This document shows positions 2,339 to 38,712 of a stretch of DNA of 39,020 bases, piece by piece. The stretch is from Candidatus Gastranaerophilales bacterium. GTDB taxonomy: Bacteria > Cyanobacteriota > Vampirovibrionia > Gastranaerophilales > Gastranaerophilaceae. The position numbers and the translations under genes are program-made. The notes beneath the pieces are model-generated. The model ran no database searches. It was not told the origin of the DNA and saw only the letters and a program-made list of their open reading frames with translations. The stretch lies in contig CALUQH010000035.1 of the NCBI GenBank assembly GCA_944322885.1, positions 1 to 39,020 of the forward strand. The letters are read 5' to 3'. Numbering within the stretch: the first letter of the stretch is position 1; each line of letters opens with the position of its first letter.

Positions 2339-3703
2339 CTAAATTAATACTTCCTGGGCAACATTTTTATGCATTTCATTAAGCATTGTCTTAATCTGCT
2401 TGTATAATTTGGAATTTGTTTTTCCGACTGTTGCAAAAATTACTATTTCATCAGAATTTTTAATATTCTGCACAAATTCACCAGAAATATCAGCCTTAAC
2501 CAAGTTTGCATTTTTAAACCCTTGCAGTTGCTCTGCAATGTTTTGCGGAATATTTTCAAAAACAGCAATTGAAAGTTTTTTATCCTGATTTGCAAGAAGA
2601 AATAATTTTAAATCGGAAAAATCGTTTTCCAAATTATAGATTATATTTTCACCGAGCATCGAATAAGTAAGTTTTTTATCCGTATTTTCCGCAAAAATAA
2701 CCGCAAATAACGCTGCAAGAAAACCAAAAACAATTCCGAGCAATATGTTAATCAAAAGCTTAGGCGATGAATATTCAAAATCCCTGAGTTTTTGCGGTTC
2801 TTTAAGCACAAGAACTTTTGAGGAATCAGACATTTCATCAACCATTTTTGCCCATTCAAGTTTAGAAGAAAGAGCTGCGACCTTTTCAGCTTCTTCAGTA
2901 ACGGCAATTCTTGATTTCTGTCCAGCAACAATCTGCCCCTTAATATTTGCCATAGCCTGCTGTGCGGATTTGGAAAAAGCACTCATTGCAGATAAATTAC
3001 CGGTTGCCGCTGCAGCCTGCTCAGGCAGTCCGCTTACCGTATTAACTTTATGGTTCAATGCCTGTTTTGCCTTATTGTATTCTCTTTCAATAACCTCTTT
3101 ATCAGACTTTGATTTTTCACTGTTCAATTGTTTGTGAAGTTCCACATAATTATTAATAATAGAATTAACCACATTATAGGCTAGTTCAGGGTCTTTTGAT
3201 TTATATTCAATTGTAATAACGTTAGTTCCCTTTTTATTTTCAAAAGAAATATTTTTCTTTAAAAACGCTTTTGTGGAAATGAATTCACCCTCTTTTTTAT
3301 TCGGGAATATTCCAAAAAGTTTCTTATAAACCAAATTATTATCTCTGATGACTTTATCAATCACAAGAGGAGATTGCATCAACTCAAGCTCATTTGTTAA
3401 AGCCCCGCCGCCGCCTGCCATCAAAGCAGCCATGCCGCCGCCTGCCCCACCAAGTTCTTCTATAGCATACGGATTTATTTCCATCATATTGGAATTATTA
3501 GCTTTATTTACATACAAATCACTTTCCACAGAATATTTTTTAGGCATTATAAAAGTTAAAACAATAAATAATACCAAAACTGCCACAAAAGTTTTAGCAA
3601 TCAAAAACTTTCTGCTCCATAAAGCAAAAAATATTTTCTTTAAATCTATCGTAAGCTCTTCATCTAACTCATCCTGCGGAATGTAAACAGTATTTTGCTG
3701 CAT
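2339..3703 (-). CDS. Wzz/GNVR-type polysaccharide chain-length protein with a kinase-remnant-like tail
   Basis: Inner-membrane polysaccharide co-polymerase of 454 residues. The N-terminus (about 20-55) has the Wzz cytoplasmic segment and first membrane helix (FLIAKTFVAVLVLFIVLTF), then a periplasmic domain with a Gly/Ala-rich loop (about 84-101) and the LMQSPLVIDKVI motif. A coiled coil follows, then a second helix (LLINILLGIVFGFLAALFAVIF) preceded by the usual Pro-containing stretch. After this helix about 115 cytoplasmic residues remain. Their end (EIVIFATVGKTNSKLYKQI) recalls the last strand and helix of BY-kinases, but no Walker A or B motif and no Tyr-rich tail is seen. The start has AAGGAG at good spacing. 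It is the last gene on this strand of the polysaccharide locus and probably has its own promoter. Confidence 0.88.
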   Translation of the reverse strand: MQQNTVYIPQDELDEELTIDLKKIFFALWSRKFLIAKTFVAVLVLFIVLTFIMPKKYSVESDLYVNKANNSNMMEINPYAIEELGGAGGGMAALMAGGGGALTNELELMQSPLVIDKVIRDNNLVYKKLFGIFPNKKEGEFISTKAFLKKNISFENKKGTNVITIEYKSKDPELAYNVVNSIINNYVELHKQLNSEKSKSDKEVIEREYNKAKQALNHKVNTVSGLPEQAAAATGNLSAMSAFSKSAQQAMANIKGQIVAGQKSRIAVTEEAEKVAALSSKLEWAKMVDEMSDSSKVLVLKEPQKLRDFEYSSPKLLINILLGIVFGFLAALFAVIFAENTDKKLTYSMLGENIIYNLENDFSDLKLFLLANQDKKLSIAVFENIPQNIAEQLQGFKNANLVKADISGEFVQNIKNSDEIVIFATVGKTNSKLYKQIKTMLNEMHKNVAQEVLI

Positions 3704-3780: not shown

Positions 3781-5397
3781 TCAATTAGCTCCAGAAACGA
3801 GTTCGGGATGACAAATTTTTGCTGGTTTTATATTATACATAGTAGACGTAATAAAGTTAATATCAATTTTTTCGGATAATTTTCCGATTTCCTCTGACAT
3901 AACATCATTACGTTCGTCAAATTCACTTAACTTTGCATTATTTATCAAATCATCAGAAACATAATTATCTGTTGCAACCGGGCTGAAACCATCAAAACCG
4001 GCAATTGATACAGATTCTATATTTATCTTTATCAAAAGTTTCAACAACATCAATGCAACATTGTCAAACATTTTGGAGTCATTCAGATATGATGAATAAT
4101 TCAATACAAGCGCCTGCGGAGGAATATTTTCAATATTTGAGGATACGACTATCGGCCCGGAGTAATCATTCAAAGATGTAAAACGTTTCATGTTTGTCAC
4201 AAAAACAAGATTTTCCCTATACTGTTCCGGAATAAAATTCAAAGATATTATAAAAGGATTTTCTCTTTCAATGAAATTATCCACCCTTTCCTTTTCTTCC
4301 TTCAAAGATTTCCCGGGAGCAAGTATGAGAATCTTCTTACCGCTTAAAATATTCTTCATATACTCAACCGTTTTACTGTCATCAACAGCTTTTGAAAATT
4401 TATCCAAATACAATTGCTTAATCAAATTTACATCATAAATCGACTTTTTATTATCCGGGATTGACTGTAAAAGATTGTTAATAAATTCAACAGGTACAGT
4501 CTGCTTGTCAACAAGATATTTTGCGTAATTCGGATGACAATGATTTGTTGCCGCCAGATAATAAGGCACAGAATAACCCCAAGGAGTTTTGGCAAATATA
4601 GGATTTATCTGCTCATCAACTATTTTTAATATAGGAATTATATCGTAGTGCCCTCCGTAATTGTCATTAATATACTGGGTAATAAGCTCAGTACAGAGAT
4701 TTCCTGCACCACGCCCCATGCCAAATACTGTAGAATCAATAATTAATTCCCTGTCTTTGCAAACCTTCATCAAGCACTGCGCATTAGAAAAAGATAACTG
4801 CAAATTATTATGGGAATGAAAACAAAGGGCTATGTCTTTATTAAGATTATGATCTATTAAATAATATAACCTTAACATATCGTTTTCTCTTAACACACCT
4901 TTTGTATCAACAATAGAAAAACCATACGGTCGTAAATTATTAACTTTAGTTAATAAATCTATTAATTCTTCATCCGAATATGTATCTATATTTGTAGGAT
5001 TTACAAAAATATTATAGCCACACTGCTTTATTTTTTCAAAAAATTTAAATACATCACTGACTTCATGCTTTTTAAAAGTTACGCGGATTGCATCAAGACT
5101 TATATTATTATCTTTATTTATAAGTTTCTCCACCGGAAATTGCCCGAACATAATCATTGCACAAACTTTTGTCTGTGCAGAATAAACATTAGCACAATAA
5201 TTAATTTCTTCTATTTTATTAAATAATGTTTTATTGATAGAATATTCGCAATTTCTCAAAAAACCGCACTCTATATAATCGACTTTAGACTGAACTAAAT
5301 TCTCAAATATTTTTGAAATACTCTTTTCTCCAAAATTCCAGTTATTTACATAACCGCCATCGCGTAATGTACAATCTAAAACTTTTATATTAGACAT
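3781..5397 (-). CDS. DRE-TIM aldolase (HMGL/4-hydroxy-2-oxovalerate aldolase-like) fused to a MptE/DUF115-like domain
   Basis: Two-domain enzyme of about 538 residues. Residues about 5-320 are a DRE-TIM metallolyase barrel: the opening LDCTLRDGGY carries the catalytic Arg-Asp pair, HSHNN near residue 196 supplies the metal-binding histidines, and GMGRGAGN is the glycine-rich loop typical of oxovalerate aldolases. Such enzymes make or cleave 4-hydroxy-2-keto acids using pyruvate-type enolates. From about residue 355 a second domain starts with ILILAPGKSL and ends with SVSIAGFDGFS, a pattern seen in MptE-like/DUF115 and GT42-type proteins. It overlaps the CMP-transferase gene by a few bases. 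I prefer the second in-frame ATG (5397), 9 nt after AGGA; the ATG at 5403 is only 3 nt away. The last ten or so codons come from a dispersed repeat. Product unknown; a keto-acid sugar for the surface polysaccharide is my inference. Confidence 0.8.
   Translation of the reverse strand: MSNIKVLDCTLRDGGYVNNWNFGEKSISKIFENLVQSKVDYIECGFLRNCEYSINKTLFNKIEEINYCANVYSAQTKVCAMIMFGQFPVEKLINKDNNISLDAIRVTFKKHEVSDVFKFFEKIKQCGYNIFVNPTNIDTYSDEELIDLLTKVNNLRPYGFSIVDTKGVLRENDMLRLYYLIDHNLNKDIALCFHSHNNLQLSFSNAQCLMKVCKDRELIIDSTVFGMGRGAGNLCTELITQYINDNYGGHYDIIPILKIVDEQINPIFAKTPWGYSVPYYLAATNHCHPNYAKYLVDKQTVPVEFINNLLQSIPDNKKSIYDVNLIKQLYLDKFSKAVDDSKTVEYMKNILSGKKILILAPGKSLKEEKERVDNFIERENPFIISLNFIPEQYRENLVFVTNMKRFTSLNDYSGPIVVSSNIENIPPQALVLNYSSYLNDSKMFDNVALMLLKLLIKINIESVSIAGFDGFSPVATDNYVSDDLINNAKLSEFDERNDVMSEEIGKLSEKIDINFITSTMYNIKPAKICHPELVSGAN
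3787..3812 (-). repeat. Single arm of the 26-bp palindromic repeat, inside the end of the aldolase gene
   Basis: The minus-strand sequence here matches the right arm of the hairpin at 36374-36430 in all but a few of 26 positions (GTCATCC, GAAC, GTTTC and GGA blocks shared). It encodes the last residues of the aldolase (CHPELVSGA), a signature translation of this kind of dispersed repeat. The stop codon lies just after the arm. Confidence 0.7.
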
Positions 5398-6061
5398 ATT
5401 CATTCATCCTATACTTTTTATACATAAACTCTGCAAATTCAAAATCTATTTCGTTATCAATATCCAATCCCTCTAATTCCTCAACATGGACAAAATATGG
5501 TTTAGTCCCAATAAAGGATCTGTTTTTAATCATTACATCCTTTGATAAAAGATTTACCGCCGCATTTATTGAATATATTGCAGGCAAATCTTGACTTCTT
5601 GGTTTATTTTTTTCAGAATAATTTAAAGGTTTTCCGTCTTTCCACATAAATAATTTTACCAGATCAACAGTGTTACAGGAATCATATTGATTATTTATAT
5701 TTTTGAAATACTCGTGTATAACCTGTCTTACAGTATTATCCTTAATTAACGGATTTGTTGCATCCGCAAATAATATCAAATCAGCATCACAATGATTTGC
5801 TAAATCAACATAAACTTCATTTATTGAAACTGTTGAAGAGGCAAAATACGGATCTCTTTTAACAGTTTCTGCACCAAGTGATTCAGCGAGTTCCAACATT
5901 TCATCACTGTCTGAATTTACTATTACACCATCTAATTCTTTTATTCTTTGCATTTGTTTTATTTTTATCTCCAACAGGCTGCTGCCTGCAAATGGTCTTA
6001 TATTTTTATTCTTTACTCTTTGCGAGCCGGCTCGAACCGGAATGAGGGCTTTTATTGCCAT
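5390..6061 (-). CDS. CMP-sugar synthetase-like cytidylyltransferase (NeuA/KdsB family)
   Basis: A 223-residue nucleotidyltransferase of the acylneuraminate cytidylyltransferase family, which activates acidic 2-keto sugars with CTP. The N-terminal nucleotide-binding loop IPVRAGSQRVKNKNIRPF matches the family pattern (IPaRxGSxxixxKNi). FADATNPLI corresponds to the conserved segment around the metal-binding aspartate. The C-terminal GLDIDNEIDFEFAE is the typical IDxxxDxxxAE tail. The length is standard. It has GGAGG upstream of the ATG and overlaps the aldolase gene, so the two are translationally coupled. The classical sialic-acid genes neuB and neuC are absent here, so the activated sugar need not be sialic acid; the neighbouring aldolase and HAD phosphatase may supply it. 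Confidence 0.85.
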   Translation of the reverse strand: MAIKALIPVRAGSQRVKNKNIRPFAGSSLLEIKIKQMQRIKELDGVIVNSDSDEMLELAESLGAETVKRDPYFASSTVSINEVYVDLANHCDADLILFADATNPLIKDNTVRQVIHEYFKNINNQYDSCNTVDLVKLFMWKDGKPLNYSEKNKPRSQDLPAIYSINAAVNLLSKDVMIKNRSFIGTKPYFVHVEELEGLDIDNEIDFEFAEFMYKKYRMNEYV

Positions 6062-6072
6062 ATAACCTCCAT

Positions 6073-6783
6073 TTACACCTTAATTAAATCTAAAACTTCT
6101 TTCTCTGTCATTCCTTTTTCTTTAGGATTTACATAACCCCAGTTTACTAGCAGAGGTTTTATCTGCGGAAATTTCTTACACGTATTTATATTATCAACAC
6201 TATCCTCTACTAAATAACAGCTCTCAATAGCATTTTCTTTTAAATACCTTTCAATAAATTCCGCCTTACTATTATACGACACAAGGTCTTCATTTGTAAA
6301 CAGTTTGATATTATTTATACCATATCGTCTAAGTTTATTTTGGACAGGAAGTTTCTTTTTATTTGTCAAAATTATAAATTCGTACTCAGGATCTTTTGCC
6401 AATTCTTTAACTTTAAAGAAAAAATCATAAGGTTCATCTAAATTATCCCAAAACTCATAATCATTTTTAATCAAATTTTCACGGGCTTTTACAAATTTGT
6501 TGTCAAACTCGGTAATACGTCGTATATCCGGATTTTTAATCAATTCATAATATCTCCGCTCTAATAATTCAATATTAGATGTATTAGAATTTATTAGTCC
6601 AAATATATAAAAAAATTGCCAACTTTGGGAAACCAAATATCTCATTGTTCGATACTTTAAATATTCTTCATCATCAACAGGTGCATAAATATCTGCTCCA
6701 TAATATGCAGTTCTTGCTAATAAATACGCCTCTTTTGCACTATCAAACAAAACTCCGTCAAAATCTAAAAATATCGTTTTCAT
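6073..6783 (-). CDS. HAD-superfamily hydrolase (sugar phosphatase candidate)
   Basis: A 236-residue haloacid-dehalogenase-fold protein. Motif I is FLDFDGVLFDS, with the nucleophilic and acid/base aspartates at residues 7 and 9. Motif II is IILTNKKK, and the acidic motif IV is LVEDSVDNI. The helical cap inserted after motif I suits small phosphorylated substrates. It overlaps the flippase stop by 4 bp (ATGA) and lies 11 bp before the cytidylyltransferase start, so it belongs to the same transcript. In keto-sugar pathways a HAD enzyme often removes the phosphate before CMP activation, and this is my inferred role. It is not close to KdsC by visible motifs. Confidence 0.8.
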   Translation of the reverse strand: MKTIFLDFDGVLFDSAKEAYLLARTAYYGADIYAPVDDEEYLKYRTMRYLVSQSWQFFYIFGLINSNTSNIELLERRYYELIKNPDIRRITEFDNKFVKARENLIKNDYEFWDNLDEPYDFFFKVKELAKDPEYEFIILTNKKKLPVQNKLRRYGINNIKLFTNEDLVSYNSKAEFIERYLKENAIESCYLVEDSVDNINTCKKFPQIKPLLVNWGYVNPKEKGMTEKEVLDLIKV

Positions 6784-8033
6784 ACCTGATTATTCTCCTG
6801 TTTAGCAAGTATTTTATATTTATTAATATAATACATCCTGTGTAAAAATATTATAATATAGGTAGAAGATACTAATATAGCAACAGAATATATTGTAATA
6901 TGATTGAACAAATAAAGTAAAACCAAACCGCAAATATTATATATTCCGCCGACTATATAACCTGAATTTGTTTCCTTGACATATCCAAATGCTCCAAGTA
7001 ACGGGAAACCAAATGTATCAACAAATACATACAAAGGAAATGAAATAGCAAAAATTCTAAGAATATTTACAGATGGCAGCATTTTTTCGCTAAAGAATAT
7101 GATAATCAAATATTTAGACGCAATAACTAAAAATAATCCAAAACCGATAGCAAATATAATTAAATATTTCAATAATTTCTTAAAGAAAACTATATCCTTA
7201 TTTTTTGACATATATGGGAATAATGCCCCAATAAAAGTACTATACAATGCAAAAACAGCCCAGAAAATTTTATCAGCAGACACATAATATGCAACAGCAG
7301 TTGTAGTAACAACAAGACCTAACACAAAAGCATTTGTCTGGCGATATAAAGCAATCGCAACTTTAGTGAGAAAGAACTGACTGCTGTATTTGAATGTATT
7401 AATAATATCGTCTTTTGACGGAATATAAAACTTGATATTAAATACTTTTTTTACGAAAAATAAACTTATTCCCCCTGCTAAAACAGCTCCTAAAGAGTTA
7501 AATAACGGGACTAAATAATAATCCTGCGCTCGTTTTATAAAACAAAAAATCAACAAAGTAGAAGCTGTTTTGGTTATAATATTCAGAACAGTAATAAATT
7601 TCATCCGCTCCATGCCCTGATAAAACCAGGTAAATATAAAGACATTTCCGATTACCGATAAAAACGTAAAATAATAAACTAACCAATATGATCGAAATTT
7701 ATCAATAAAAATAATTAAGAAAGAAAGAATTATAAAACTTATAATAAGGAATATAACTTGCACGGACAAAATAGAATTAAAAATCAGATTTGTTGCGTCC
7801 TTGTCATCCCTATTAATTGCAATAGTTCTTACTCCCGAAAAATCAAACCCGAACATCGCAAGCCTGAAAAAATAATCCATAAAAACCTGAGCAAAAAATA
7901 CCAACCCTAATTTGTCAACATCTAATACTCTGGATAAATAAGGCAAAGTAATAAATGGCAATACATAATTAAGAACTTGAATTATTACCAAAGCTATTGT
8001 ATTTTTAAATAGATTTTTTTTATCCTGCTTCAT
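6780..8033 (-). CDS. wzx: Wzx-type polysaccharide flippase
   Basis: A 417-residue multi-spanning protein of the MOP superfamily (RfbX/Wzx) that moves lipid-linked repeat units across the inner membrane. The opening (LFKNTIALVIIQVLNYVLPF, then LPYLSRVLDVDKLGLVFF) is the classic start of these flippases. About 12 hydrophobic helices follow. The stop overlaps the HAD gene start, and the start lies 1 bp after the upstream gene stop, giving a tightly packed operon. Substrate specificity cannot be read from the sequence. The family is certain; the symbol is given for function rather than orthology. Confidence 0.9.
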   Translation of the reverse strand: MKQDKKNLFKNTIALVIIQVLNYVLPFITLPYLSRVLDVDKLGLVFFAQVFMDYFFRLAMFGFDFSGVRTIAINRDDKDATNLIFNSILSVQVIFLIISFIILSFLIIFIDKFRSYWLVYYFTFLSVIGNVFIFTWFYQGMERMKFITVLNIITKTASTLLIFCFIKRAQDYYLVPLFNSLGAVLAGGISLFFVKKVFNIKFYIPSKDDIINTFKYSSQFFLTKVAIALYRQTNAFVLGLVVTTTAVAYYVSADKIFWAVFALYSTFIGALFPYMSKNKDIVFFKKLLKYLIIFAIGFGLFLVIASKYLIIIFFSEKMLPSVNILRIFAISFPLYVFVDTFGFPLLGAFGYVKETNSGYIVGGIYNICGLVLLYLFNHITIYSVAILVSSTYIIIFLHRMYYINKYKILAKQENNQV

Positions 8034-8034
8034 G

Positions 8035-8829
8035 TTATTGATACATATCCTTAAATAAACCTTTTAACCCAACAGGATTAACTGAAATAATTTCAGTTTC
8101 AGGGTAATAAATATCCGCAAACTTTTTCAATTCTTTCCATGATTTATAAAGAGTTTTATTAATTTGAATTTTTTTATCAGATTTTTCATCAAAATGACCT
8201 GAAGAACAATCACAACCGACAAGATAAATACGTTTCGGATTAGTAAATAAAGCAAATTGCATTGCCGAAAAAATAACCGAACCGCCATCGGCTAACCAAG
8301 TTTTGTCAATATCAGGATTAAAAAATAATGGAGTTACTAACCACTTTCCATAAGTATAATATTTGTAGGCACCATGTTTTAATATTAAACTTTCTGGCAT
8401 AATAATATTATCATTATTAATTTCTTTACATCCAAATGGTTTTAAAGGTACTTGCCCATAAAATTTTGTCACATTTTTATATTCAATTAGATGGTTAATA
8501 TAATTATTATTAGCCCAATAATCTTGTGAAAAATAATAATCCAAACTTATTTTATCATTGAATATTGCCTTATTTACACCAATATTGATTAAATTTTCTA
8601 TCGGTTTATATTGATTTAAGCTAGGCCCAGTTGCAATAATCGCTATTTCTTGACTTATATATTTATTTTTATATTTTCCAAATGTTTCTTTATGGGTCAT
8701 CGCAACTACATTTGATTGAGAAATATACATATTCTGCATATGTACAGTTCTTATATAATTTTGAACTATTGAACTTGGAAGCGCATAACACCTCTTAAAG
8801 AAGCTTAAAATTAATTTGTTAATATTCAT
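8035..8829 (-). CDS. MptE-like/DUF115 or GT42-like protein of the polysaccharide locus
   Basis: A 264-residue soluble protein. An early Rossmann-like strand and loop reads IAIIATGPSLNQY. The C-terminal half has GGSVIFSAMQFALF and then RIYLVGCDCSSGHFD. This arrangement (GPSL near the start, SA..A........I.L.G.D late) is shared by MptE-like/DUF115 proteins and the GT42 sialyltransferases, which use CMP-sugars. It also resembles the C-terminal domain of the aldolase two genes beyond the flippase and HAD genes. I chose the ATG at 8829, which has GGAGG five bases upstream and overlaps the polymerase stop by 4 bp; a TTG at 8841 would place the ribosome-binding site inside the gene. A CMP-sugar transferase role is attractive but unproven. 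Confidence 0.6.
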   Translation of the reverse strand: MNINKLILSFFKRCYALPSSIVQNYIRTVHMQNMYISQSNVVAMTHKETFGKYKNKYISQEIAIIATGPSLNQYKPIENLINIGVNKAIFNDKISLDYYFSQDYWANNNYINHLIEYKNVTKFYGQVPLKPFGCKEINNDNIIMPESLILKHGAYKYYTYGKWLVTPLFFNPDIDKTWLADGGSVIFSAMQFALFTNPKRIYLVGCDCSSGHFDEKSDKKIQINKTLYKSWKELKKFADIYYPETEIISVNPVGLKGLFKDMYQ

Positions 8830-10205
8830 TGTTTCCTCCAATAATCTATGTACCTTCTATAATATTCATTAAATGCAATAGCCAAACCAAATAAAAACCA
8901 AAAATAAACAAAATTTGCTCTAATATCATAGAAAGAAAAAAGAACAATTGAAACTAAAGTCATCCTTATTCCTTCCATGAAATTTCTTTCAGAACAATAT
9001 TCTATATTTTTAATAATTTTATTTAATGAAATTATACTACTAATATAAAAGGCATATAATAAAATAAAACCAACTAAACCAGTATTAGAAATAGTATCCC
9101 ATAATATTGCCCCATTAATCTTTATTTGCCCTTTATTTGAAGAACTTTTTGTTATATGCAATATAGTTTCTTGTGTTAATGGTAAATTATTTTTATAAAA
9201 ATATTTTTTTACAACATATTCTGTATTTTTATACCCAACACCAGTTATAGGATTTTCTATTAAAAGCTGTAATCTTGCCCTGTATGAAATAAATCTATTA
9301 GCAAGAGATGGCTCAACTATTACTAAACTTTCCATGCTATTCAAATTTTGAACTGTTTTAATAATTCTAACAATAAAAGTTTCATTTATATTCACATTAT
9401 TAAAAAATATAATACAACCTAAAATTAATATTATTAAACTAGTACTAAATGAAATAATACTTTTTTTTATAATTTTTATAATATTTTTAGAAAAATAAAT
9501 TAATGTCGACAATAAACAAAAAATTAACCAAATAGGAGATTTAATAGTAAATATTGTAATCCATACTAAAAAGATATAAGTTTTTTTTATAAAAAAATTT
9601 AAGGCAATATTTTCTGAAATTCTAAATTTTGAAAGTACGGTTTTGTAAATTAAAGGTAAATTTATACATAAAAAACCTCCAAAATATCCAGGTTCTTCAA
9701 AAACACTTAAATTTCTTGATATCAGGATATCTTCACGCCTATTGTTAATAATATCTTGTATAGAATTTAAAATATTTATATTTAAACTGTTAAAAATAAA
9801 AACCAATAATCCATAAAAACATATTACATAAATACCCACTAATAAAAACTTTTTAATCTTGTTTATTGATATAATATTAGGAACAGTAAAAATAGGTAAT
9901 AAAAACCAAGTTAAATCATTATAAATAAACAAAATAAATACTGCATATAAATAATTTAAAATATCAAATTTGTTTAATATTACTAATATTAGTCCCGAAA
10001 AAATACACCAAGAAATATATAAAAACAGATATTTTATTGGATAACTATGCAATAGAAAAAATTTTTTAATTAATTGTTTTGAATTTAATAAAAGAGTAAG
10101 AAACGTTATTCCTATAATAATATCATAAACAGGAATATTTCCCCCTGGCAAATATAGACTTGGTAAAAACAAAAATATTAAAGATAAATAAATTAAATTT
10201 CTCAT
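8826..10205 (-). CDS. wzy: Wzy-type O-antigen polymerase
   Basis: A 459-residue hydrophobic protein with about 10-12 predicted membrane helices and one larger extracytoplasmic loop around residues 275-365 (with LANRFISYRARLQLLIENPITGVGYKNTEY). That loop and its Arg-rich, GVG-containing stretch are characteristic of the Wzy/O-antigen-ligase superfamily. Composition is extremely AT-rich, even for this window, as is common for serotype-specific polymerases. No clear ribosome-binding site precedes the ATG. A TATATT lies exactly 6 nt upstream of it, so a leaderless start is possible. It overlaps the next gene by 4 bp. Function as polymerase rather than ligase is inferred from the locus. Confidence 0.8.
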   Translation of the reverse strand: MRNLIYLSLIFLFLPSLYLPGGNIPVYDIIIGITFLTLLLNSKQLIKKFFLLHSYPIKYLFLYISWCIFSGLILVILNKFDILNYLYAVFILFIYNDLTWFLLPIFTVPNIISINKIKKFLLVGIYVICFYGLLVFIFNSLNINILNSIQDIINNRREDILISRNLSVFEEPGYFGGFLCINLPLIYKTVLSKFRISENIALNFFIKKTYIFLVWITIFTIKSPIWLIFCLLSTLIYFSKNIIKIIKKSIISFSTSLIILILGCIIFFNNVNINETFIVRIIKTVQNLNSMESLVIVEPSLANRFISYRARLQLLIENPITGVGYKNTEYVVKKYFYKNNLPLTQETILHITKSSSNKGQIKINGAILWDTISNTGLVGFILLYAFYISSIISLNKIIKNIEYCSERNFMEGIRMTLVSIVLFSFYDIRANFVYFWFLFGLAIAFNEYYRRYIDYWRKQ

Positions 10206-10275: not shown

Positions 10276-11253
10276 TTATAAAACATTCGTTTTACTAAAA
10301 TATATTTTTTTTAAATCAACATACTTAAAATACCAATAAGATATAAATCTGTATAATTCAAATTCTTTATATGTATTACAAGCCATAAATTTCTTAAAAA
10401 GATTTACCCTATTATTTGAATAAGTAAAATGTATTTTTAAATTATATTTCTTTACAGTATTATGAATTAAATTAAACAATTCTTTCTTTTGTTCATTATT
10501 CCAATTTGCTCTTAAATATGATGTAAATGGTTGTTCACACAAATAATTTATAAAATGATCATTATGAGATTTCCACCAATCTCTTTTTGTATAAAAATCA
10601 CATAAATCTTCAAACCAAATTCTAATATTGTCTAACAATTTATCAGGTTGATTTTCAATTATTTTAGATATTTGAAGATTGTGTCGTCTATAAAAATATT
10701 TTGATTCTTTATTGATTTCAGTTTTTGAGGTTAAGCCTAAAAGTTTATGTGTAAATACTGCATCTGGCCCCATTTGCAAATTTTTATTATATGTAATATC
10801 AGGATTATTTTCTAATAATTTTTTTTTATAAAATAATTGCCAAACAGTAGTATAAGAGATTTCACTAGGCATTCTTTTATCCAAATTTAATCTCACATTT
10901 AAAAAATTTATAACAATATCTAATTGTTTTTTTTCAGCAATTTTTAAAGATGTCTCAATAGTGTCTAATGAACATCTATCATCAGCATCTAAAGCCATAA
11001 TGTATTTACCTTTAGCTAGTTTAAGGCCCAAATTTCTAGTTTCAGCTTCACCTTTATTTTCTTGAGAATATATTTTTATTCTATTATCTTTTTGTGCATA
11101 TTTTTCAAGAATGTTCAAAGAATTATCAGTTGAACCATCATTGATACAGATTATTTCAATATCTTTATATGTTTGATTAATTAAAGATTCAATACATTCT
11201 TTTAAATATTTTCCAGCATTATAAACTGGGACTATTATTGAAATTAAAACCAT
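10276..11253 (-). CDS. GT2-family glycosyltransferase
   Basis: GT-A-fold inverting glycosyltransferase of about 325 residues. The N-terminal domain is textbook: ISIIVPVYNAGKYLKECIES, then INDGSTDNS, and ALDADDR as the nucleotide-sugar/metal motif (ADD in place of DxD). The C-terminal 200 residues are acceptor-specific and unrecognised. The ATG at 11253 has AAGGAGG seven bases upstream; the in-frame ATG at 11259 is only one base from it and is rejected. It likely adds one sugar to the lipid-linked repeat unit on the cytoplasmic face. AT-rich like its neighbours; the donor and linkage are unknown. Confidence 0.88.
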   Translation of the reverse strand: MVLISIIVPVYNAGKYLKECIESLINQTYKDIEIICINDGSTDNSLNILEKYAQKDNRIKIYSQENKGEAETRNLGLKLAKGKYIMALDADDRCSLDTIETSLKIAEKKQLDIVINFLNVRLNLDKRMPSEISYTTVWQLFYKKKLLENNPDITYNKNLQMGPDAVFTHKLLGLTSKTEINKESKYFYRRHNLQISKIIENQPDKLLDNIRIWFEDLCDFYTKRDWWKSHNDHFINYLCEQPFTSYLRANWNNEQKKELFNLIHNTVKKYNLKIHFTYSNNRVNLFKKFMACNTYKEFELYRFISYWYFKYVDLKKIYFSKTNVL

Positions 11254-11255
11254 AT

Positions 11256-12248
11256 TCATACCTCCTTAAAGATAATTTTTTTTTGAATATTTTGTAATAA
11301 CAATGAAAACTTTTTATAAAAATAATAATATATAGTTCCTATTATCAAGCTGATTAAAATATGCTCAATGGGCGAAATATATTTTAAATACATTACAACC
11401 ATAGAGTCTACCAAAAAGATCTCTAAGGATTTTTCTCCTATAAAATAAAAAATATCTTTATAAATTCCTGTTTTTTGATAAATTAAGCATATTGATAAAA
11501 CTAACCCAGGAACAAATAATGCCATTAAATAATAACATAGTCCATATTTTATTCTATATTCATAGAATAGACTATGCGTAATAATTAAACCAATAAAGGC
11601 AAAAGCTGAAATTAATAATATAATAAACAAATTTTTATTTGATAATAATCTTTTTTTCTTACACCAATAAGCCGCATACATGCCAATAACAAAAGAAAAA
11701 ATTCTTGCTATCCCAGAGATTCGCCAGTCATTCCAATAAGGTATAGTTAATACAAATAACAATAATAAAAAATAAATTTGTTTTTTTAAATCATATAATC
11801 TAGTATTTATAATGTTATAAAAGATTGGTGTAATTATATAAAAAAGAAAAATATAAGATAAATAAGCAAAAGCACTTTTTTGTATCCAAAAACTTTGGTA
11901 AGTAAAATAACCAATCATAACATGAATACTAGTTATTTTTGATAAGAAAAAAAATGCAATAAAAAAAGGAATAGCAGGCAGAAAACGTTTTATTCTTCTT
12001 AAATAAAAATCTAATATATCAGAATTTTTATATAACGAAAAATAAACACCAAATCCTGCACAAAATAAAAATATTTCTACCCCTCCAAAACCTAGACCAA
12101 AAAAAGGATATTTTATAAACAAAGGTAATGAAATTTGTTTATGAACATGACTGAATATTATCCATAACATTGCAATTCCCATTAAATTAGTTCGATATGT
12201 ACTAATTAATGACAATATATTTAATTTACTAAAATTCTCTATATTCAT
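11256..12248 (-). CDS. Acyltransferase-3 family membrane O-acyltransferase
   Basis: An integral-membrane protein of about 330 residues with about 10 helices, of the acyltransferase-3 (OafA/NodX-like) family that acetylates surface sugars. The first segment, YRTNLMGIAMLWIIFSHV, holds the conserved Arg and the His that is thought to be catalytic. The following GGVEIFLFCAGFGVYFSL matches the family's (F)G..G..iFF..SGf signature with substitutions. I use the ATG at 12248, preceded by GAGG six bases away; the ATG at 12260 lacks a ribosome-binding site. It is directly upstream of the GT2 gene with a few bases between. It probably decorates the repeat unit with acetyl groups. Confidence 0.82.
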   Translation of the reverse strand: MNIENFSKLNILSLISTYRTNLMGIAMLWIIFSHVHKQISLPLFIKYPFFGLGFGGVEIFLFCAGFGVYFSLYKNSDILDFYLRRIKRFLPAIPFFIAFFFLSKITSIHVMIGYFTYQSFWIQKSAFAYLSYIFLFYIITPIFYNIINTRLYDLKKQIYFLLLLFVLTIPYWNDWRISGIARIFSFVIGMYAAYWCKKKRLLSNKNLFIILLISAFAFIGLIITHSLFYEYRIKYGLCYYLMALFVPGLVLSICLIYQKTGIYKDIFYFIGEKSLEIFLVDSMVVMYLKYISPIEHILISLIIGTIYYYFYKKFSLLLQNIQKKIIFKEV

Positions 12249-12270
12249 AAATATCCTCATAAATTTTTAA

Positions 12271-13458
12271 TCATAAAATAATTTCAATTAATTTTTCTAA
12301 ATTTTCTCCAACTTTTTCCCAAGAGAAATTATCCGACGCAAACTTTCTTGACTTTGTTGAAATTTCTTTTTGCATATCATTACTTTTCATTATATCAATA
12401 ACTTTCTGCGCAAACTCTTTATTAGACACGGCAACTTTCAAAATATTTTCATCCGCACCAATTCCTTCTGCACCTTCCGGAGTTGTTACAACAGGTATTC
12501 CCATAGCCATTGCCTCCAATATTTTATTTTGAATACCACCGGCAATTTTGACAGGACACACTGAAACTTTGCAATCACTCATATATTCTCTTACATCATT
12601 TACACGACCTAAAACTTCTACTCCATCAATATTTCCTGCAGACATAATAAGATCTTTGCGAGGATTAGCACCAATAATTTTAAATACAGCATCCGGAATT
12701 GACTTTTTTATCAAAGGAAAAATTTCAGTTGCAAACCAAATTGCAGCTTCTGAATTTGGAATATACTGCATAGAACCGACAAAACAAATTGCATTTTTTA
12801 ATTTACTGTTTTGTGGGTAAAAAAAGTCTGTATCAACTCCATTTTTAATTATTTTTATATTTGAGTCAGAACAATATTTTTCAAGATATATCTTATCAAC
12901 TTCAGATATAACTGTCTGATACTTAAATAATTTAGCACATTTTTTTTCATAATTTCGGACTTTTAAATATTCTACACCTATTTTAAACTTATCCCATATT
13001 GATTTTACAGTCTTTATTCTTCTTTCATACATCATAGACACTGCATCAACAAAATCAAGAATTATAGTTTTATCCTTATACTTTTCTAAATAAGGTGCAA
13101 CTCTTATCATATAACCACCGATTATATCAAAATGCTCATTTTTTATAAGCTTGTCAATTTCATTCTGCATTTCCCTACTATAAAAATACTCTACAATAAA
13201 GGGTCTATCATTAAAAATAGCCTTTACTGCATTTATATAAGCTAATTTTTTATTAAATTCTACAGGGATTAGCCTATCAAAAAAAGTATGATCCTTTAAA
13301 CAACCTTCTAAATCATCTTCAGGTGTAACTAATGAGACCAAAATAATTCTGTGCCCTTTTAATTTTAATTGTTTTAAAAGATTATACATTCGTACCCTAT
13401 CCCCACCTATAGTAGGATAGGGTAAACGCGTAGTAAGGTATAAAATATCCTTACCCAT
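12271..13458 (-). CDS. GT4-family glycosyltransferase
   Basis: A 395-residue GT-B-fold retaining glycosyltransferase. The N-terminal Rossmann domain begins DILYLTTRLPYPTIGGDRVRMYNLLKQL, similar to the group annotated near exopolysaccharide/exosortase loci (TIGR03087-like). The C-terminal nucleotide-sugar domain has FVGSMQYIPN and the EX7E-type region KILEAMAMGIPVVTTPEGAEGI, which binds the donor. It overlaps the end of the sugar-transferase gene by 8 bp. GC content rises again here relative to the genes at 8.0-12.3 kb, so it marks the edge of the AT-rich cassette. Donor and acceptor are unknown. Confidence 0.88.
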   Translation of the reverse strand: MGKDILYLTTRLPYPTIGGDRVRMYNLLKQLKLKGHRIILVSLVTPEDDLEGCLKDHTFFDRLIPVEFNKKLAYINAVKAIFNDRPFIVEYFYSREMQNEIDKLIKNEHFDIIGGYMIRVAPYLEKYKDKTIILDFVDAVSMMYERRIKTVKSIWDKFKIGVEYLKVRNYEKKCAKLFKYQTVISEVDKIYLEKYCSDSNIKIIKNGVDTDFFYPQNSKLKNAICFVGSMQYIPNSEAAIWFATEIFPLIKKSIPDAVFKIIGANPRKDLIMSAGNIDGVEVLGRVNDVREYMSDCKVSVCPVKIAGGIQNKILEAMAMGIPVVTTPEGAEGIGADENILKVAVSNKEFAQKVIDIMKSNDMQKEISTKSRKFASDNFSWEKVGENLEKLIEIIL

Positions 13459-14818
13459 GCCTGCCTCCTAAAGCCAAAAAGACGGCTTTGACCAAAATTC
13501 CGATTTCCCATAATATATTACGGTGTTTCAAATAATATAAATCATATTGTAATTTTTCTGCAACATCATCGTTTGAGACACAATGTCCCTGATTTATCTG
13601 TGCCCAGCCGGTCCAGCCGGTTTTTACCCATTGACGGCATTCGTAATATGGGATTTCCTTAGAATATATACTCACAAGATCCTCCCACTCGGTTCTTGGT
13701 CCGACAATTGACATTTCGCCGCGCAAAATATTTATCATCTGAGGGATTTCATCAAACCGTGCTTTTCTTACAAACCTGCAGAAAGGAATAACCCTTTCAT
13801 CTTCATCCTGTGGTTCTGTGTGCTCTATATTACCTTCTTTCGGGACATAATTATTAGCATACATTGTTCTTAACTTATACGCTTTAAAAACTTTACCGCC
13901 TTTGCCGACTCTGTTTTGGGTGTAAATAGCATCCCCGCCGTCAGTATGTTTTACACGAATACCTATATAAAGTAAGATCGGACTTGTAACCGTTAAAATT
14001 ATCAAAGCGGAAACAACATCAAATATTCTTTTACAGATATCATAAACAACTGATCTTTTATTCATAAAATCATAGAAAAGCCAATTTATAGACATTCTGT
14101 CAATATAATATTTCCCTGTAACAAGTTCATAAAATTCAGGCATTTTATAAACTTTGACTTTATTCGGAATATTTTCAACCATATTGGTCAGCAATATTTC
14201 TTCCATTCGTCTTTTAATTGCAACTATTACAATATCAACCTTATTTTTATAAATAATTTCTTTTAAGTCAGAATTTGCATCATAAATTTTGAAGTTACCT
14301 TCTTCAACAAGTTCTTCTGATTCAATATCTTTTACAAAACCGATTACATTCATTTTCAGAGCTTTTTTATTAACTATTTCATCTGCAATCAACTTTGCAT
14401 TCTTATCAGAACCGATTATCAAAACATTTTTAGTTCGTTTTATATTAAATAAGTAATAATGAAATAAAAGTCTGTATACTCTGAGAATAACAAATATTGT
14501 AACAAGGTTTGCAAGAATAAACTCAAATACCTGTGCGCCGGGTGCAAATATCAATAATAAAATAACTGCAGGAATTTGAGAAAAAACAATACCTTCAAAC
14601 AAAAGATAATAGTTTTTTAAAGTTGTGTTAAACTCTCTAATTTTATAATTATCTTTCAAAAAGAGAACCATAACTCCGGATAAAACAGTCAAAAATACTG
14701 TTATATCCAAATATTCTAGAGGCAGTGCAAATATTGCATACCAAAAAGTCGTAGAGAAAAGAAAGACAAATAAGTCGAATAAAAACATTATTAATGTTGA
14801 TTTAGATAATAATCTCAC
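13451..14818 (-). CDS. Polyprenyl-phosphate glycosyl-1-phosphate transferase (WbaP/WcaJ type)
   Basis: A 455-residue initiating enzyme that transfers a sugar-phosphate to undecaprenyl phosphate. Four N-terminal membrane helices (about 1-120) and a CoA-binding-like domain (VLIIGSDKNAKLIADEI) lead to the catalytic C-terminal domain: KRIFDVVSALIIL, YTQNRVGKGGKVFKAYKLRTM, ARFDEIPQMINILRGEMSIVGPR. The DE pair of the last motif is intact. The start is GTG at 14818 with AGAGGA eight bases before it. Its own promoter with a palindromic -10 is just upstream, so it probably heads the polysaccharide transcript that runs left to about 3.8 kb. Confidence 0.93.
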   Translation of the reverse strand: MRLLSKSTLIMFLFDLFVFLFSTTFWYAIFALPLEYLDITVFLTVLSGVMVLFLKDNYKIREFNTTLKNYYLLFEGIVFSQIPAVILLLIFAPGAQVFEFILANLVTIFVILRVYRLLFHYYLFNIKRTKNVLIIGSDKNAKLIADEIVNKKALKMNVIGFVKDIESEELVEEGNFKIYDANSDLKEIIYKNKVDIVIVAIKRRMEEILLTNMVENIPNKVKVYKMPEFYELVTGKYYIDRMSINWLFYDFMNKRSVVYDICKRIFDVVSALIILTVTSPILLYIGIRVKHTDGGDAIYTQNRVGKGGKVFKAYKLRTMYANNYVPKEGNIEHTEPQDEDERVIPFCRFVRKARFDEIPQMINILRGEMSIVGPRTEWEDLVSIYSKEIPYYECRQWVKTGWTGWAQINQGHCVSNDDVAEKLQYDLYYLKHRNILWEIGILVKAVFLALGGRHG

Positions 14819-29123: not shown

Positions 29124-29594
29124 ATGAAGATTTTAGGAATTGATCCTGGGCTTGGAATAGTAGGCTACTCTATTGTTGAATATGATGGAGAAACACCCGT
29201 ACTTTTGCATTCAGGCTCTATACAAACACAAAAAGGCGCAAGGGAATCTGCAAGATTATTAGAAATATTTAACGATATGAACTCTATCGTTGACAGATAT
29301 AAACCGGATTGTGCTGCAATTGAAAAACTGTTCTTCTTCCGCAACAGAACAACTGTTATGCCGGTTGCCCATGCCCGCGGAGTTATTCTGACGGTATTAG
29401 AAAAATTCGGGGTGCCGATTTACGAATACACACCCATGGAAGTTAAACAGGTCTTAACAGGATACGGCAGAGCCGACAAAAAAGAAGTGGAACAAATGGT
29501 CAAATTATCTCTCGGCGTTGATGCTTTGCCAAAACTTGACGACACTGTAGATTCTATTGCGATTGCAATTTGTCATACAAGGACAAGAGTATGA
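29124..29594 (+). CDS. ruvC: Holliday junction resolvase RuvC, copy 1
   Basis: A 156-residue RuvC endonuclease. The catalytic acidic residues are all visible: Asp7 in GIDPG, Glu67 in AAIEKLFF, and Asp140 and Asp143 in LDDTVDSIAIAICH. The TTVMPVAHARGV and YGRADKKEV stretches are family-specific. It is somewhat shorter than the E. coli protein (173) at the C-terminus. A second copy at 38236 differs at only 11 of the first 153 residues, while the DNA differs at about one base in five. The stop overlaps the metalloprotease start (ATGA). ruvA and ruvB are not in the window. Confidence 0.95.
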   Translation: MKILGIDPGLGIVGYSIVEYDGETPVLLHSGSIQTQKGARESARLLEIFNDMNSIVDRYKPDCAAIEKLFFFRNRTTVMPVAHARGVILTVLEKFGVPIYEYTPMEVKQVLTGYGRADKKEVEQMVKLSLGVDALPKLDDTVDSIAIAICHTRTRV

Positions 29595-38235: not shown

Positions 38236-38712
38236 ATGAAAATTTTAGGAATTGATCCTGGGCTTGGTATTGTCGGATATTCTATAGTTGAATTTGATGG
38301 AGAAGTTCCTGTCCTTTTGCATTCAGGTTCTATTCAGACCCAAAAAGGTGAAAAAGAGTCTGCAAGATTGTTGGAAATTTTTGAGGATATGACATTAATT
38401 GTTGATAAGTACAAACCTGATTGTGCAGCTATTGAAAAGTTATTTTTCTTCCGCAACAGAACAACGGTTATGCCTGTGGCTCATGCTAGAGGGGTTATTT
38501 TGACTGTATTAGAAAAATTTAAGGTTCCAATTTATGAATATACTCCGATGGAAGTTAAACAAGTTTTGACAGGTTACGGGCGTGCAGATAAAAAAGAGGT
38601 TGAGAGAATGGTAAAATTGTCTTTGGGGGTTGATGTGCTTCCAAAGCTTGATGATACCGTTGATTCAATTGCAATTGCAATTTGTCATACTCGCTCAAGT
38701 ATGGTAGGATAA
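38236..38712 (+). CDS. ruvC: Holliday junction resolvase RuvC, copy 2
   Basis: A 158-residue second RuvC. All four catalytic acidic residues of copy 1 are kept (Asp7, Glu67, Asp140, Asp143), as are the TTVMPVAHARGV and YGRADKKEV blocks. Differences from copy 1 are mostly conservative and lie around residues 39-58 and at the C-terminal end. Synonymous positions have diverged widely, so both copies have been held under protein-level selection or have separate origins. It sits in the murA-RWYD run, with AAGGGA eleven bases upstream, and lacks the leaderless promoter of copy 1. The paralogous membrane gene starts 5 bp after its stop. Confidence 0.94.
   Translation: MKILGIDPGLGIVGYSIVEFDGEVPVLLHSGSIQTQKGEKESARLLEIFEDMTLIVDKYKPDCAAIEKLFFFRNRTTVMPVAHARGVILTVLEKFKVPIYEYTPMEVKQVLTGYGRADKKEVERMVKLSLGVDVLPKLDDTVDSIAIAICHTRSSMVG

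Follow-up and report, generated by a model that had tools for sequence, protein, structure and literature searches.

An operon in a 39,020-nucleotide stretch of DNA from Candidatus Gastranaerophilales bacterium, a gut-dwelling relative of the cyanobacteria (contig CALUQH010000035.1 of assembly GCA_944322885.1, analysed over its full length and hereafter called the window) is proposed to make a cytidine monophosphate (CMP)-activated 2-keto-3-deoxy (ulosonic-type) sugar acid for a Wzx/Wzy surface polysaccharide without the use of a phosphoenolpyruvate (PEP)-dependent synthase; we put the probability of this reading at roughly 0.7. The operon encodes a pyruvate-type DRE-TIM aldolase fused to a C-terminal MptE-like domain, a NeuA-type cytidylyltransferase, a HAD-family phosphatase, a Wzx-type flippase and a standalone MptE/DUF115-type protein. 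Comparative genomics supports the proposed pathway well, while its reactions, their order and their substrates are what we infer.

In the first step the metal-dependent aldolase would join pyruvate, as its enolate, to an aldehyde that most likely comes from central metabolism as a phosphorylated aldose, and the choice of aldehyde would set the size of the product (C6, C7, C8 or C9). The HAD enzyme, whose motifs are in place, would then strip the phosphate, and the NeuA-type enzyme would couple the presumed keto acid to CMP in keeping with the function of its family. The standalone protein, on the strength of its fold, may pass the keto-sugar to the growing repeat unit, with export and polymerisation through Wzx/Wzy. 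An initial annotation of the window, made from the sequence alone, had outlined such a series (aldol addition, dephosphorylation, CMP activation and transfer, with the aldolase replacing the synthase), and as an inferred scheme it is supported by the absence of PEP-dependent synthases from genomes, by an exchange of enzymes beside the aldolase and by KdsC-type neighbours, as set out below.

The same annotation had remarked that the PEP-dependent synthase was missing from the operon, and indeed no NeuB/KdsA-type gene was found anywhere in the window. The host genome (1.86 Mb in 40 contigs, of which the window is contig 35; 97.7% complete) was found to carry single genes for a DAHP synthase, KdsA and KdsB, all on other contigs, and no NeuB was found in it. 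A neuB- or kdsA-type gene elsewhere in the host that could feed the cytidylyltransferase, which the annotation had named as the finding that would count against its proposal, was looked for and not found, as NeuB is lacking and the KdsA is a housekeeping gene, unlinked to the operon, that has a KdsB of its own away from this contig. Two further host matches were set aside: the only PF03102 match, on contig 16 (L067:5823-6872), considered as NeuB, proved to be the DAHP synthase (NCBIfam PRK08673), and a PF02348 match on contig 25 (L066) looks by eye like GlmU.

NeuB was detected (E <=1e-25) in 122 of the 241 genomes of the host's order, and at the same threshold was absent from the host's closest same-genus carriers of the fused aldolase (G008, G031, G137 and G216). 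Among 31 genomes of other groups in which the aldolase and a cytidylyltransferase are paired, 25 had no NeuB and 27 no KdsA above the cut-off, and both were absent from 22, a set which includes six named isolates (Bacillus sp. EAC, Proteocatella sphenisci, two Paenibacillus, Flavonifractor An82 and Robinsoniella peoriensis). Since no completeness figures are reported for these 31 genomes, any single absence is weak, but the overall pattern is not. It bears on the alternative that the cytidylyltransferase activates ordinary Kdo drawn from the host KdsA, with the aldolase serving some unrelated role. The presence of both KdsA and KdsB in the host speaks for this alternative, but that pool is already served by the host KdsB, 22 of the 31 genomes that carry the pair have no KdsA and no NeuB (Gram-positive isolates among them) and the cytidylyltransferase is strictly adjacent to the aldolase, so that we consider it very unlikely.

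The neighbourhoods of aldolase relatives bear on what the aldolase makes. A scan of a genome collection gave more than 577 relatives, and among the best 80 are members of Bacillota, Bacteroidota, Spirochaetota, Pseudomonadota and Cyanobacteriota. The operon arrangement itself was met again in four of these phyla (Bacillota, Bacteroidota, Pseudomonadota and Cyanobacteriota). A CMP-keto-acid cytidylyltransferase (CTP_transf_3) was found no more than four genes away on the same strand in 64 of 101 fused-aldolase loci. In all, 77 such genes were counted, 59 of them at exactly -1, immediately upstream of the aldolase; a phosphatase, usually at +1, accompanies 47 of the 64. Only one of 16 unfused aldolases, sampled from the host's order only, had a cytidylyltransferase neighbour (Fisher P =1.5e-5 against the fused forms, uncorrected for relatedness). 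Of the enzymes in the -1 slot, 29 are NeuA-type and 26 KdsB-type; mapped onto the aldolase tree, the slot changes from one type to the other at least 9 times across well-supported branches, with a best estimate of 13 changes. The cytidylyltransferase tree, which included four reference sequences, sets NeuA and KdsB far apart as families; the two share the CMP activation of 2-keto-3-deoxy sugar acids but little else. It is this repeated exchange which we regard as the strongest evidence on the aldolase's product; chance co-location of the two genes was rejected on the grounds of the -1 bias and the exchange together.

Genes of KdsC/KDN-9-phosphatase type, which is the type to be expected if an ulosonic acid is first made in phosphorylated form, lie near the pair in four loci (L079, L095, L097 and L109). 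The L097 phosphatase was put to a family test, passing TIGR01670 and scoring 165 bits against the KDN-9-phosphatase model (cut-off 180), while the calls in the other three rest on motifs and similarity. Taken with the NeuA/KdsB exchange, these adjacent phosphatases indicate an ulosonic-type acid. NeuA-type and KdsB-type enzymes stand together beside the aldolase in L030, L031, L046 and L047, the first two of which carry two aldolases, and this suggests that two different CMP-keto-sugars are made from one cluster. No aldehyde donor could be recognised when the genes at positions +-1 and +-2 of the aldolase were inspected by eye.

The 540 amino acid aldolase consists of an N-terminal DRE-TIM barrel part (residues 1-340) and the MptE-like domain (about residues 350-525). 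Its best general match was to the 4-hydroxy-2-oxovalerate aldolases, and the closest PDB entries by sequence were 3dxi followed by DmpG-type aldolases. The predicted structure (mean predicted local distance difference test score, pLDDT, 93) gave the same neighbours (3dxi, Z 30.9; DmpG 1nvm, Z 29.4); on structural re-alignment the full model was matched over its barrel and helical domain only. With BVU_2661 of Bacteroides vulgatus (3dxi) it shares a subfamily (E 5e-48), the fold and a DCTLRDGGY motif; that entry is the N-terminal domain of a putative aldolase, and its title assigns no function. The metal ligands D15, H196 and H198, together with R14 and E45, were invariant in 67 of 67 relatives. 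As the DRE-TIM superfamily also holds Claisen-type enzymes, and isopropylmalate and homocitrate models do register on the window protein (at 37 bits or less), it was considered whether it is an acyl-coenzyme A synthase of the citramalate/homocitrate kind and no aldolase at all. The aldolase models, however, scored highest (73.6 bits), and the match to 1nvm (339 residues long) aligned 321 residues, C-terminal helical domain included, compared to about 250 for Claisen-type synthases, which leaves this alternative highly improbable.

At its C-terminal end (CHPELVSGAN; window positions 3781-3822, minus strand) the aldolase was modelled with a pLDDT of 39, and most relatives stop near residue 527; the final 13 or so residues are probably a read-through into a dispersed repeat, which we take to be of the 'CATCCCGAACTCGTTTC' type. 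In three other loci the aldolase domain is found inside proteins of 697-1070 amino acids (L032:5801-7894, L033:4802-7966 and L034:5129-8341), two of which fuse it to a GT2 glycosyltransferase domain, a further physical link between the aldolase and glycan assembly.

The window cytidylyltransferase matched the PseF model (E 2.5e-23, 82.9 bits) below its equivalog cut-off of 205.7, and its substrate therefore cannot be named. The closest solved structure was PpNeuA (9t4z, E 5.7e-20), and the NeuA-type N-terminal motif and DID motif (R15, K19, N20 and D200) were kept in 37 of 37 sequences. In the HAD enzyme all four catalytic motifs were present (D7xD9, T140, K173 and E193/D194), and orthologues lie near the aldolase in 9 further loci.

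MptE/DUF115 or GT42-like signatures had been claimed for two proteins, and structure prediction against GT42 had been suggested as a check. For the standalone MptE-like protein both sequence and fold bear the claim out: its family profile matched Maf (5mu5) and the GT42 enzymes CstII and CstI (E 1.3e-5 to 0.05, with Maf and CstII between 1e-5 and 3e-4), and the predicted model (pLDDT 82) had CstII with CMP and Maf as its top Foldseek matches, with Z scores of 13.8 for Maf, 12.2 for CstI and 12.1 for CstII. What is shared with these enzymes is a fold and a weak sequence match, at about 14-17% identity. GT42 and Maf enzymes use CMP-nonulosonic acids, and the modelled GT42/Maf-like fold fits a transfer of the CMP-keto-sugar, although a fold alone is no proof of it. 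The GT42 reading is much weaker for the C-terminal domain of the aldolase. That domain does align with the standalone protein (hhalign probability 96.5%, E 8.6e-10; 94.2% with the domain alone), but it was unmatched in a Pfam search of the window aldolase, only 3 of 16 members of its family reached PF01973, weakly, and a profile search of the PDB gave nothing significant and no GT42 match. The domain is retained in a second genomic context, described below, as well as beside CMP enzymes, and a plain CMP-sugar transferase is therefore an improbable description of it; its probable ligand is a nucleotide, or else the substrate or product of the aldolase.

Several observations weigh against the proposed pathway. 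The position of the catalytic histidine of DmpG (H21) is occupied by tyrosine (Tyr18) in 64 of 67 relatives and by phenylalanine in 3, and the window aldolase missed the NCBIfam HOA aldolase equivalog cut-off (63 against 286 bits); on these two grounds it is counted as related to the HOA aldolases but not filed among them: a relative of the pyruvate aldolases in which the base has changed, outside the known HOA family. It has in common with DmpG/BphI the DRE-TIM barrel, the D-H-H metal ligands, the catalytic arginine and the C-terminal helical domain, and differs, besides the tyrosine, in having no aldehyde dehydrogenase partner, in its fused MptE-like domain and in its biosynthetic polysaccharide setting. 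In addition, the model of the standalone protein also resembles an archaeal MptE diphosphokinase (Z 12.2), and the MptE fold includes diphosphokinases which use adenosine triphosphate.

PfkB kinases, moreover, lie directly downstream (+1) of the aldolase in L075, L098, L104 and L130; those of L098 and L130 match models of 2-keto-3-deoxygluconate (KDG) kinase, while the other two were judged by sequence similarity. Such genes do not fit a simple phosphatase step everywhere, and they allow for some clusters making short keto-deoxy acids. They also lend something to the view that the aldolase runs in the direction of breakdown, recycling or salvaging a keto-sugar acid, as do the catabolic roles of HOA aldolases and sialic acid lyase. 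Against this stand the position of the aldolase within an operon of flippase, polymerase and glycosyltransferase genes, next to an activating enzyme, and the fact that no uptake or catabolic genes were seen beside it; we give a degradative role little credence.

A further point is that 25 of the 101 fused aldolases stand with an acetolactate-synthase-like thiamine pyrophosphate (TPP) enzyme and without a cytidylyltransferase, and 12 with neither, which means that CMP chemistry is not the only setting in which the aldolase occurs. In this second context (loci including L098, L105, L106, L111, L115, L119, L123-L125, L132, L134, L136, L140, L142 and L144) the aldolase adjoins a HAD enzyme, the TPP enzyme or both, never a CMP-keto-acid cytidylyltransferase, and many of the TPP loci carry cytidine diphosphate (CDP)-dideoxyhexose genes of RfbF/RfbH type. 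Branched sugars might be made there by the TPP enzyme from the aldolase's keto acid. These loci, along with the relationship of the fused C-terminal domain to a nucleotide-using fold family, are the grounds for supposing that the aldolase instead makes a branched sugar, from pyruvate and a keto or aldehydo sugar linked to a nucleotide or lipid, with the cytidylyltransferase and phosphatase serving another step. The TPP and CMP contexts, however, never overlap and are clustered on the aldolase tree, and the NeuA/KdsB exchange is hard to explain unless the product of the aldolase is the substrate of the cytidylyltransferase; the branched-sugar alternative is accordingly judged unlikely, and synthesis of a CMP-activated keto-sugar acid is preferred for the window operon.

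The grouping of the aldolase, cytidylyltransferase, phosphatase, flippase and MptE/GT42-like protein in one operon, also part of the initial annotation, agrees with the open reading frames (ORFs), the Pfam matches and the spacing. All five are intact ORFs (Table 1), and from the aldolase through to the standalone MptE-like gene successive neighbours are separated by a 14 nt overlap, an 11 nt gap, a 4 nt overlap and a 1 nt gap, the close packing of an operon. The standalone gene is read from an ATG at 8829, with an alternative longer TTG reading from 8841. The Wzx/Wzy polysaccharide cluster around it also encodes a WcaJ-like priming transferase, GT4, acyltransferase, GT2, polymerase and Wzz-type protein; the homologous cluster of the last was found at +1/+2 in 7 loci. 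Elsewhere in the window, two RuvC-like ORFs on the plus strand (29124-29594 and 38236-38712), 9 kb apart, share 92% protein identity; the second lies near the contig end, and the pair could be a true duplication or an effect of assembly.

Table 1. Features of the proposed operon and its polysaccharide cluster (window positions)
Feature	Position	Strand	Basis
Wzz/chain-length-type protein, cluster end	2339..3703	-	ORF; identity by eye from sequence
DRE-TIM (HMGL-like) pyruvate-type aldolase with C-terminal MptE-like domain, 540 aa	3781..5403	-	PF00682, E 1.2e-18
NeuA/PseF-type cytidine triphosphate (CTP):keto-acid cytidylyltransferase	5390..6061	-	PF02348, E 2.9e-23
HAD-family phosphatase	6073..6783	-	PF00702, E 2.8e-5, just under family cut-off
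Wzx-type flippase	6780..8033	-	PF01943, E 5.2e-46
Standalone MptE/DUF115-type protein, GT42/Maf-like fold, proposed CMP-keto-sugar transferase	8035..8829	-	PF01973, E 9.5e-8, just under cut-off
Wzy-type polymerase/ligase, same cluster	8826..10205	-	PF04932, E 1.4e-5, below cut-off
GT2, acyltransferase, GT4 and WcaJ-like priming transferase (remaining polysaccharide cluster)	10276..14818	-	

To our knowledge every known route to such acidic keto-sugars uses a PEP-dependent synthase. The operon shares with the CMP-ulosonic acid pathways (NeuB-NeuA for sialic, legionaminic and pseudaminic acids; KdsA-KdsC-KdsB for Kdo; the KDN-9-phosphate route) a NeuA/KdsB-type cytidylyltransferase, a HAD phosphatase (of KdsC type in some loci), a putative GT42/Maf-like transferase and a surface polysaccharide setting. 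It differs in that the carbon-carbon bond would be formed by a pyruvate-type metal aldolase in place of the PEP-dependent synthase, and in that NeuB and KdsA are absent from the operon and, in most of the genomes checked, genome-wide. No description of the aldolase-cytidylyltransferase combination was found in the open-licence literature, and an earlier report elsewhere is possible. In its broadest form the proposal is that many gut bacteria, Gram-positive and Gram-negative alike, make CMP-activated 3-deoxy-2-keto sugar acids by a second, widespread route in which a pyruvate-dependent DRE-TIM aldolase replaces NeuB/KdsA and which yields undescribed ulosonic acids, and that elsewhere the aldolase may feed a TPP enzyme for branched CDP-sugars; on balance we lean towards this wider claim, with some caution.

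Ulosonic acids (sialic, legionaminic and pseudaminic acids, and Kdo) are usually predicted from genomes through NeuB or KdsA. If the proposal is correct, many clusters for acidic keto-sugars are being missed, also in Gram-positive gut bacteria which are not usually expected to make them. A biosynthetic role would be added for a class of aldolase known for breakdown, and the enzyme would be a possible tool to make ulosonic-type sugars from pyruvate.

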